The translations under genes were made by a program, and so were the position numbers. Source: an uncultured Bacteroidota bacterium (GTDB lineage Bacteria; Bacteroidota; Bacteroidia; Chitinophagales; Chitinophagaceae). Taken from it: a stretch of DNA of 64,000 bases. Of this stretch, positions 24,499 to 54,754 are shown piece after piece. The stretch spans positions 1 through 64,000 of the forward strand of contig CAJADG010000023.1 in the NCBI GenBank assembly GCA_903938445.1, read 5' to 3'. The notes below the pieces were generated by a model, which had not been told where the DNA came from, made no database searches, and saw only the letters and a list, made by a program, of their open reading frames with translations. The first letter of the stretch is position 1. Every line of letters begins with the position of its first letter.

Positions 24499-24506
24499 TA
24501 TCTTTG
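24499..24506 (+). promoter_or_regulatory. Putative -7 box for infA and the ribosomal cluster
   Basis: TATCTTTG matches TAnnTTTG, 16 bases before the infA ATG and after a terminator. infA therefore appears to head its transcription unit here. Confidence 0.65.
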
Positions 24507-24892: not shown

Positions 24893-24913
24893 CTTTTAGC
24901 GGAGACGCTAGAG
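24893..24913 (+). other. GNRA-capped hairpin in the rpmJ-rpsM spacer
   Basis: TAGCG-GAGA-CGCTA (24897-24910) forms a 5-bp stem with a GAGA tetraloop, extendable by CT/AG at the base. No T run follows, so it is not a terminator. It may be a small RNA-structural or processing element; its function is unknown. Confidence 0.4.
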
Positions 24914-24955
24914 TTTTAAAAAACAAAAATTAAAATAAAAAACAAGTTTTAGCAT

Positions 24956-25336
24956 ATGGCTCGTATTGCCGGTATAGACTTACCAAAAAACAAAAGAGGA
25001 GAAATTGGACTACAGTACATTTTCGGTATTGGACATTCAACTGCTCAGTACATCTTAGACAAAGCAAACATCAGTTACGATAAAAAAGTAAATGAGTGGA
25101 ATGACGAAGAGCAAACAGCAATTCGTAATATCATTAACGCTGAATTTAAAGTAGAAGGTGCTTTACGTAGTGAAGTTTCTATGAGCATTAAGCGTTTATT
25201 AGATATCGCTTGTTACCGTGGTTTACGTCATAGAAAAGGGTTACCTGTTCGTGGCCAAAGAACTAAAACTAACTCACGTACTCGTAAGGGTAAGCGTAAG
25301 ACAGTTGCTGGTAAGAAGAAGGTAGCTAAGAAATAA
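24956..25336 (+). CDS. rpsM: 30S ribosomal protein S13
   Basis: A 126-residue head protein of the small subunit. The N-terminus [18 protein letters not shown], the helix-hairpin region with [11 protein letters not shown], and the basic tail ([19 protein letters not shown]) are canonical. It is followed by an unusually long 185-bp spacer that holds a terminator-like hairpin and a structured element before rpsK. Confidence 0.98.
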
Positions 25337-25344
25337 TAAATCAT

Positions 25345-25379
25345 AAAGTAGTCGTCGAAAATTTCGGTGACTACTTTTT
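25345..25379 (+). terminator. Terminator-like hairpin between rpsM and rpsK
   Basis: AAAGTAGTCGTCGA pairs with TCGGTGACTACTTT (14 bp including two G-T wobbles) around a 5-base loop, followed by a run of five T (25375-25379). By sequence it is a good intrinsic terminator in the middle of a ribosomal operon. I see no perfect -7 box between it and rpsK, so read-through or attenuation control is suggested. Confidence 0.7.
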
Positions 25380-25392
25380 GCTATAAAATCCG

Positions 25393-25468
25393 TTTGAAAT
25401 TGGATCCTGATTCGCAAGAACCAGGGGAGATTTAACCGGTTTCCGCTTCGGCGGAATTTCAATTTAAA
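25393..25468 (+). promoter_or_regulatory. Candidate ribosomal-protein leader RNA: three-way junction upstream of rpsK
   Basis: The predicted closing stem is AAATTG (25397-25402) with CAATTT (25460-25465), extendable by TTT/AAA past a bulged G. Inside are two hairpins. CCTGATTC-GCAA-GAACCAGG (25406-25425) has eight positions, one A-C mismatch and a GNRA loop. TTCCGC-TTCG-GCGGAA (25441-25456) has six perfect pairs and a UUCG loop. Two stable tetraloop hairpins in one closed unit, just upstream of rpsK-rpsD-rpoA-rplQ, suggest an autoregulatory leader. The fold was found by eye without energy calculation or alignment. Confidence 0.5.
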
Positions 25469-25521
25469 TAACCCGCTCTTTTACAAGTGAAAAACAAGTA
25501 AAAAAGCACACCTCAAACACA

Positions 25522-25932
25522 ATGGCTAAACCACAAAAAGCACAGAACAGTGCAAAAGCAGCTGCAAAAAAGAGAGTCGTAAAAATCGACGCAGCAGGTG
25601 AAGTTCGCATCAGCGCAACTTTCAACAATTTAATCATCGCCTTTACTAACAAAGCAGGTCAAGTAATTAGCTGGAGCAGTGCTGGTAAAATGGGCTTTAG
25701 AGGTTCTAAAAAGAACACTCCATATGCCGCTCAAATGGCAGCAGCTGATGCAGCGAAAGTAGCATTAGACGCTGGTGTTAAAAGAGTGGATGTATTTGTA
25801 AAAGGACCAGGTTCTGGTCGTGAAGGAGCTATCCGTTCTATTTCACAATCAGGTATCGAAGTAACTTCAATCCGCGACGTGACTCCAATGCCACATAACG
25901 GTTGTCGTCCTCCAAAACAAAGAAGAGTATAA
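25522..25932 (+). CDS. rpsK: 30S ribosomal protein S11
   Basis: A 136-residue protein of the 30S platform. An Ala/Lys-rich N-terminal extension (about 20 residues) precedes the conserved core: [38 protein letters not shown], and the C-terminus [16 protein letters not shown]. It is preceded by a 185-bp structured spacer and followed by an 88-bp spacer before rpsD. Confidence 0.98.
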
Positions 25933-25953
25933 CACTAACAATATTTCAAAAAG

Positions 25954-26006
25954 GGTATTGCATTCATTTTAGATTTTTACTGATGCTTTACCGTCACCAA
26001 AAAATC
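25954..26006 (+). promoter_or_regulatory. Candidate pseudoknot upstream of rpsD
   Basis: Stem 1: GGTATTGCAT (25954-25963) pairs with ATGCTTTACC (25983-25992), eight pairs around a 2x2 T-T internal loop. Stem 2: GATTTTT (25972-25978), inside the stem 1 loop, pairs with AAAAATC (26000-26006) downstream, making an H-type pseudoknot that ends 14 bases before the rpsD ATG. Stem 2 is nearly all A-U, so it could be chance in this AT-rich genome. Confidence 0.35.
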
Positions 26007-28365: not shown

Positions 28366-28376
28366 GCCTAAATTTG
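28347..28376 (+). promoter_or_regulatory. Promoter of carA
   Basis: TTG (28347-28349), a 19-bp spacer, then TAAATTTG (28369-28376), matching the Bacteroidota consensus. The ATG lies 48 bases downstream. The -33 element is in the loop of the rplQ terminator, so terminator and promoter overlap. Confidence 0.7.
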
Positions 28377-54365: not shown

Positions 54366-54735
54366 GGGGTCGTATGGTTTTGACAGCAAGCGTAGCGGTT
54401 GGGGTAAGCATGCAGTGCGTTGGATAATTAGCACTTAAATCTGAATATCAAACAATCAAACGGCGAAACAAACTACGCCATGGCTGCTTAATTCAGTGAA
54501 TTAACTTCCATTATGGCCGAGCAAGCAGGTAGGCCCTTTACCCGCAGCTTAGCTTAATCAAAACAAAAAGGGATGCGATAGGAGTAGGCTGTGCCTCCTA
54601 TTTAAGTACCATCCAGCTAAGTAGTAGATTGGTTTGTGTTTTTCCTGTCTACCGCCGACAAGTAATAAAACAATAAGCATGTAGAAGACCAATGGTAACA
54701 TTGTTTGGACAGGGGTTCGACTCCCCTCGACTCCA
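54366..54735 (+). ncRNA. ssrA: Transfer-messenger RNA (tmRNA)
   Basis: The 5' end GGGGTCGTATGGTTTTGACAG and 3' end GGGGTTCGACTCCCCTCGACTCCA form the tRNA-like domain: the 7-bp acceptor GGGGTCG/CGACTCC and the T arm with TTCGACT. It is 370 nt. The reading frame at 54462-54491 encodes the tag GETNYAMAA followed by TAA, a typical Bacteroidota-type tag ending in Ala-Ala. The CCA end is not encoded (ACGG follows). tmRNA and SmpB rescue stalled ribosomes and mark the product for proteolysis. A strong terminator follows. Confidence 0.97.
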
Positions 54736-54754
54736 CGGTTCCTTTTTGGAAAAT

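Follow-up and report, generated by a model that had tools for sequence, protein, structure and literature searches.

The window analysed here, a 64,000-nucleotide stretch of DNA, carries on its + strand a ribosomal protein operon with the gene order infA, rpmJ, rpsM, rpsK, rpsD, rpoA, rplQ (infA and rpmJ were read from the sequence). Between rpsM (uS13, 24956–25336, + strand, an open reading frame that served as tblastn anchor) and rpsK (uS11, 25522–25932, + strand, called as an open reading frame) lies a spacer of 185 nt, 25337–25521. The original prediction described this spacer as unusually long, which holds against 60 loci of other families, where it measures 2–116 nt as called, but not within Chitinophagaceae, the family to which named relatives assign the window, where it ranges from 21 to 244 nt with a median of 142 (110 loci). 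Its predicted fold (−50.1 kcal/mol) is much more stable than those of shuffled sequences (−32.1 ± 3.8; z = −4.73; 0 of 200 shuffles as low). The + strand was scanned for TANNTTTG, which I take to be the consensus of the −7 box: none occurs between 24507 and 28368, so that the predicted lack of such a box between the first hairpin and rpsK was borne out, and the interval 25380–25521 displayed neither a −7 box nor a sigma-70-like site. The nearest box upstream of the spacer, TATCTTTG at 24499–24506, lies about 16 nt 5′ of the infA ATG and could plausibly serve the entire operon as promoter. Since this sole nearby box precedes infA and the next is met only at 28369, transcription through the spacer probably begins further upstream. 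The element described below is on the same strand as rpsK, which is the first gene 3′ of it and its probable regulatory target, and no −7 box separates the two as judged from sequence only. Elsewhere in the window, a tmRNA gene occupies 54366–54738 (Rfam RF00023, 117.5 bits).

The features of the spacer are all on the + strand. After rpsM, a hairpin scan and folding both recovered the predicted 14-bp terminator-like hairpin with a short T-run after it (T1, 25346–25376), which is probably accessory; a stock terminator scan of the spacer did not list T1 and returned the UUCG hairpin alone. Further 3′ lies helix P1, whose 5′ strand (25390–25400, comprising CCG at 25390–25392 and AAAU at 25397–25400) pairs with 25430–25439, as indicated by covariation among 82 members and by folding. 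Enclosed by P1 are the two sides of an internal loop, UGGAU (25401–25405) and GGAG (25426–25429), and between them the covarying hairpin P2 with its GCAA loop (25406–25425). P3, a UUCG hairpin followed by a U-rich stretch (25441–25456), is a terminator-like site, variable and accessory: by eye, a hairpin stands at its place in many, not all, relatives. Both the GCAA and the UUCG hairpin had been predicted, and both were found again by folding. P4, a hairpin formed by GCUCUUUUAC and GUAAAAAAGC (25475–25507) and proposed from the fold, sits directly 5′ of the octamer and exists in some relatives only; P4-like hairpins were seen by eye in L002, L005, L024 and L067 (loci are numbered, the window being L001). 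The octamer itself, GCACACCU at 25506–25513, was identified by a pattern scan of the family spacers and is the window variant of GANUACCU. The span to which attention had been drawn, 25345–25468, holds the hairpins but stops short of this conserved octamer.

A three-way junction within that span had been put forward as the functional structure. The window does contain its closing helix, 8 bp between 25394–25401 and 25455–25462. However, when the folds were forced, the junction came to −27.8 kcal/mol versus −31.1 for the fold conserved in the family and −33.5 for the unconstrained minimum, which differs from both, and in the minimum-energy folds of L002, L005, L051 and L067 P1 is present while the closing helix has no counterpart (by eye). 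Being 3.3 kcal/mol worse than the family-conserved fold and lacking its closing helix in four relatives, the junction is, by these folding models, probably not the functional fold.

The family-conserved fold was defined in Chitinophagaceae. rpsK was matched in 186 of 195 genomes of the family and the rpsM–rpsK spacers of 110 were examined; for 15 loci the start codon had to be guessed from the open frame, the call for L080 was wrong and the start of L038 is doubtful. The conserved set consists of helix P1, an internal loop with (C/U)GGAU opposite GGAG(G), hairpin P2, and the octamer before the rpsK AUG. A stem search recovered the core in 87 of the 110 spacers; seven doubtful cases, the window and L002 among them, were set aside by hand and L108, which contains N, was skipped, which left 79 cores, 42 of them in alignment A1. 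Covariance model R1 was built from these 42 relatives, the window copy being excluded. The R1 scan and alignment A2, which was fitted to the model, cover L001–L100; L101–L110 were outside the scan, though four of them are in A1. At E ≤ 1, R1 detects the core in 82 of the 100 family loci scanned (69 at E ≤ 0.01, 13 above). All 82 are immediately upstream of rpsK: 80 fall within the called spacer and two are placed by coordinates. Of the 18 loci that R1 misses, some, such as L002, L005, L030 and L060, do display the core by eye.

In A2, 73.3% of the cells assigned to pairs are paired, compared to 46.9 ± 1.3% after shuffling, and the covariation score is 0.590 versus 0.207 ± 0.014, neither value being equalled in 500 shuffles. 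Sliding the partners by 1–3 columns, a control that keeps relatedness, gave covariation scores of at most 0.20. The 44 rows of A2 that were outside the model alignment behaved similarly (72.0% paired versus 47.0 ± 1.7 shuffled, maximum 52.4%). Changes on both sides are found in 11 of the 12 pairs, an observation of little weight because shuffles reach the same count. Columns 10 and 59, which the model does not pair with each other, read C-G in 58 and U-A in 11 of the 82 members, a pair noticed post hoc as one of seven column pairs inspected. In the loop, G13 and A14 (the second G and the A of the 5′ side) and A57 and G58 (the A and last G of the 3′ side) are invariant, U15 and G55 (the U and the first G) are kept in 81 of 82, and the second G of the 3′ side in 77 of 82. 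The covariation expected in related genomes is therefore present in P1 and P2 but not in the closing stem that had been named. Two features by which ribosomal protein leaders are generally recognized are found here: a conserved RNA structure backed by covariation, and a constant place upstream of a ribosomal protein gene (82 of 82 in L001–L100; 15 of 16 in the named loci described below). That a genuine, structured RNA element, seemingly absent from the catalogues, precedes rpsK is very probable.

The window copy is a divergent member of this family. Under R1 it scores 15.1 bits (E 0.11), the top match of the 64 kb with filters off, and its match covers 25391–25440; two whole-genome R1 searches with stricter filters did not report it in its own genome. 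Because of this score and of these misses, its assignment rests on place and relatives as much as on the score. R1 also misses two congeners of the window genome, L002 and L005. The whole-genome search of 60 genomes matched 33, the window genome not among them; 34 whole-genome matches comprise 25 that lie before rpsK by coordinates, three that do not (E 0.017 or worse) and six that could not be placed relative to rpsK. Across 247 genomes of the phylum, ten were matched, three of them in Chitinophagaceae (two at rpsK, one not); the seven outside the family were rejected as homologues, as tblastn detected no rpsM, rpsK, rpsD, rpoA or rplQ in the locus. For comparison, 60 of 127 matched genomes from other families of the order and class were taken: the core is absent from the rpsM–rpsK region of these 60 loci, the best R1 match (13.6 bits, E 0.15) being outside the spacer. 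Among 80 named loci, R1 gave 16 matches, 15 of them inside rpsM–rpsK spacers (six repeat spacers of the first locus set) and one, in L249 (E 0.3), outside. The 15 fall in Flavihumibacter, Flavipsychrobacter, Deminuibacter, Puia, Pseudoflavitalea and Parafilimonas, and further ones in Chitinophagaceae, Sphingobacteriia or Bacteroidetes records; loci named Flavobacterium, Pedobacter, Pontibacter or Bacteroidales within these 80 gave none. Among the genomes examined, the element is restricted to Chitinophagaceae. It is lacking in L188 (Chitinophagaceae) and in L214 (labelled Chitinophaga pinensis isolate 3); R1 and the pattern scan found neither core nor octamer in L062, L063, L069, L085 and L099, and neither was seen in L105 by pattern scan and by eye.

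The octamer pattern NNNNACCT ends 6–17 nt (median 12) 5′ of the rpsK ATG in 102 of 110 family spacers, where shuffling predicts 5.6, and 97 of these 102 spacers carry GANTACCT. The first G is kept in 101 of the 102, the A at the second position in 100 and ACCU in all, while the fourth letter is T in 97 and C in five. The octamer is found in one of 60 other-family spacers: L166, of the same class, has a GATTACCT octamer near the rpsK ATG after a small hairpin and no core match, and is either a reduced relative of the element or a chance occurrence. Within the family, L088 also has the octamer and no core match. Sequestration of the octamer by an upstream AGGTA was rejected, as this complement is depleted (5 of 102 spacers versus 15.1 expected); since it is not enriched upstream, a single-stranded octamer is in keeping with the data. 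In the minimum-energy fold of L067, by eye, an outer helix peculiar to that locus takes up the octamer, an upstream AGGUAA pairing with its UUACCU in what might be a switch; such a switch would not be general, because few family spacers have AGGTA upstream (5 of 102). Pairing between GGAGG of the core and ACCU was likewise rejected, as it amounts to 3–4 bp only and compensating changes were not apparent by eye.

The position of the octamer, 6–17 nt 5′ of the AUG, suits a constitutive translation-initiation element in which structure and octamer would together place the 30S subunit at the rpsK start, with no feedback, in bacteria with ribosomes that take little notice of Shine-Dalgarno sequences. 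Such an arrangement is conceivable given that Bacteroidia ribosomes hide the anti-SD in a pocket of the platform, as passages of PMC9976891 and PMC8710568 have it. Across 20 genomes, the pattern GATTACCT...ATG is in most cases commoner than its reversed control, an excess that I would put down to in-frame GAT-TAC-CTN codons. However, at 20 other, hand-picked GATTACCT...ATG sites, the pattern stood 5′ of no open reading frame longer than 85 aa, which speaks against the octamer as a general start signal, and a simple initiation signal would not need a folded core upstream. A purely constitutive role for the element is hence distinctly unlikely.

Transcription attenuation is another possibility. 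T1 and/or P3 would then be intrinsic terminators and the core would decide on read-through into rpsK-rpsD-rpoA-rplQ. In the absence of a −7 box in the spacer, the downstream genes would indeed need read-through; P3 is terminator-like in the window, and a hairpin followed by a T-run is found within 110 nt of the rpsM stop in 66 of 110 spacers, versus 11 expected. Conversely, L041, L066, L095 and L106 have no room for T1, compact members lack P3 (by eye), and T1 is 5′ of the core and therefore transcribed before it. T1 is treated as accessory because it is enriched yet not universal, and because of this position. I regard attenuation as very unlikely. In its general form, the original proposal of an intra-operon leader that controls rpsK and possibly further genes is upheld by the covariation and the constant place, but control of read-through at T1, a hairpin found in 66 of 110 spacers, is not.

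Some members may possess an additional pairing. In roughly one in four family loci (27 of 110, selected by eye), the loop of a short P2 is able to pair 5′ of P1, with a strand whose place hardly varies and through alleles such as GCACC/GGUGC, GACUU/AAGUC and GGCUU/AAGCC. Nine of 20 loci chosen because P1 is long and the local stem weak reached p ≤ 0.05, and three more had too little upstream sequence. When each locus was set against the upstream strands of other loci, 8 of 66 fell in the top 5% (3.3 expected), a hardly separated result from a test that is weak because shared alleles blunt the control. A count over 31 loci (94.8% paired versus 68.0 ± 5.1; 0/2000) is descriptive rather than proof, because these loci were picked by eye for pairing and the register was set per allele; L044 was dropped from the corresponding alignment, A3. 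A pseudoknot subtype is nevertheless likely, on these alleles, in some species. The window copy has no clear place in it.

Known RNA families do not account for the element. No Rfam model reaches its cut-off there, in the window or in the Chitinophagaceae loci scanned. The candidates rejected were BTnc005, which reached 18.4 bits on T1 of the window for a cut-off of 174.8, Trp_leader, which in L007 gave the element 26.6 bits for a cut-off of 41, miRNA models on other hairpins of L002 and L024, read as chance, and Alpha_RBS (RF00140), whose window match at 24906–24988 scores 19.2 bits for a cut-off of 38 and whose matches in other loci are also below cut-off, none overlapping the element. The S4 leader models RF03141 and RF03139 had no match in the window, nor in the two sets of Chitinophagaceae loci scanned, of 20 and 6; positive controls matched in five other loci. 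S4 leaders of Rfam were found before rpsD in Flavobacterium, Myroides, Dysgonomonas and a Porphyromonadaceae record.

The operon contains a second conserved structure, a hairpin at 25953–26006, just 5′ of rpsD, whose loop GAUUUUU can pair with a downstream AAAAAUC. In alignment A4 (26 of 42 rpsD stretches, including L003, L009, L029, L188, L191 and L213; pairs read by eye), the two partners change together, as in AAGCUUUUU/AAAAAAGCUU in L029 and GGCCUUU/AAAGGCC in L191. These alleles suggest that the hairpin is likely to form a pseudoknot. It has no Rfam match in the loci scanned, it differs from RF03141 and RF03139, and it is probably an S4 leader of Chitinophagaceae. In Pedobacter and Mucilaginibacter (L244, L247, L248, L254, L257) another conserved stretch, TTTAAAGCTAAGANTC...GATACTTTAAAA, precedes rpsD, with no Rfam match in L244, L247 and L248.

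This second structure bears on the identity of the ligand. Besides the rpsD-proximal structure, or in concert with it, S4 might also bind the rpsK-proximal element and repress rpsK-rpsD-rpoA-rplQ as in the E. coli alpha operon. S4 is the established regulator of that operon in E. coli and acts through a pseudoknot (as set out in a portion of PMC10931766), and a pseudoknot is probable in some members of the rpsK element. Moreover, according to a passage of PMC7247131, the ligand of a ribosomal protein leader is poorly predicted by the gene next to it and better guessed from the ligand known in other lineages, a rule that would choose S4. On the other hand, rpsD of Chitinophagaceae has its own, differently built conserved structure, in the very place where the Rfam S4 leaders sit in Flavobacterium and Dysgonomonas. 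An S4-responsive rpsK element consequently appears unlikely, if less so than the constitutive and attenuation readings.

The reading that I favour is that the element is an unrecorded leader in the rpsM–rpsK spacer of Chitinophagaceae that would respond to uS11 and act on translation; on comparative grounds I hold this to be an even call. That the element answers to a ribosomal protein is quite probable, and that the protein is uS11 could equally be true or false. Both uS11 and S4 had been named as candidates in the original prediction. My preference for uS11 comes from the apparent presence of a distinct leader for rpsD in Chitinophagaceae: the element adjoins rpsK, and the separate conserved structure stands directly 5′ of rpsD. 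I infer regulation, uS11 as ligand, and control of translation rather than of transcription. The core (P1, the YGGAU/GGAG loop and P2, probably with a pseudoknot in some species) would present a protein-binding site, and GANUACCU, 6–17 nt 5′ of the AUG, would be either the second half of that site or the means of blocking initiation. Once uS11 outnumbers free 16S rRNA, it would bind the leader, initiation on rpsK would decrease, and perhaps also the output of the coupled rpsD-rpoA-rplQ genes. What counts against a uS11-responsive leader is the weakness of the window copy (15.1 bits, E 0.11), with its variant octamer, and the failure of R1 to detect the congeners L002 and L005; no convincing mimicry of a uS11 site was found in the element.

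A further hypothesis is that the rpsK mRNA is a decoy of the 3′ end of 16S rRNA. The octamer resembles GAUCACCU, and the core loop GCYGGAU presumably resembles the 16S sequence just before that end; uS11 or Era would read late 30S assembly at this decoy and thereby set uS11 synthesis. Feedback would then come from an assembly step and not merely from free protein, Era having been proposed to help install uS11 on the platform. This decoy is a long shot. Since the match involves six fixed letters and one with two alternatives, chance would produce it about 0.2 times in a 16S rRNA (my own estimate), so that the likeness of the octamer alone proves nothing, and no 16S rRNA was found in the genomes searched for this comparison.

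If uS11 is the ligand of the rpsK leader, a platform protein joins the known leader ligands, one Chitinophagaceae operon contains two separate leaders, each before its own gene, and uS11 is tied to the platform region in which Bacteroidota ribosomes hide the anti-SD. Comparable leaders are well documented for other ribosomal genes, and the one before rpsK matches no catalogued RNA family. No report of a uS11-responsive leader was found in the open papers searched, supplements, where an unnamed motif may figure, being outside this scope; the word rpsK is absent from the main text of a 2024 review on extraribosomal roles. Model R1 makes the leader idea directly testable at the bench.

How does the element compare with known systems? 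Like S4-Flavobacteria (RF03141) and S4-Bacteroidia (RF03139), it is a structured RNA of the same operon and phylum located 5′ of a ribosomal protein gene. Unlike these hairpins, which precede rpsD, it precedes rpsK, its loop is different, and it comes with a distal octamer and, in some species, a probable pseudoknot. With the S4-repressed alpha-operon leader of E. coli (RF00140) it shares the operon, a pseudoknot (probable here in some members) and presumed translational control, but RF00140 sits at the start of rpsM. The 3′ end of 16S rRNA that the Era GTPase reads is GAUCACCUCC, according to passages of PMC9159920 and PMC10582724. Of the letters of GAUCACCU, the octamer GANUACCU retains the G, the two A and the CCU; in contrast to GAUCACCU, the third position is free, the fourth is mostly U instead of C, and no h45-like hairpin is common to all members; the resemblance to the Era-read end is suggestive only. 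Finally, autoregulation of bS21 (rpsU) in Bacteroidota, which relies on an extended Shine-Dalgarno sequence, also concerns the gene of a platform protein in the same phylum, and it involves the anti-SD tail, which the octamer resembles. The two cases differ in their geometry: the GGAG of the window is not a normal Shine-Dalgarno sequence, because it lies 92 nt 5′ of the AUG and is part of a folded loop, whereas the motif near the rpsK start, the octamer, is anti-SD-like.
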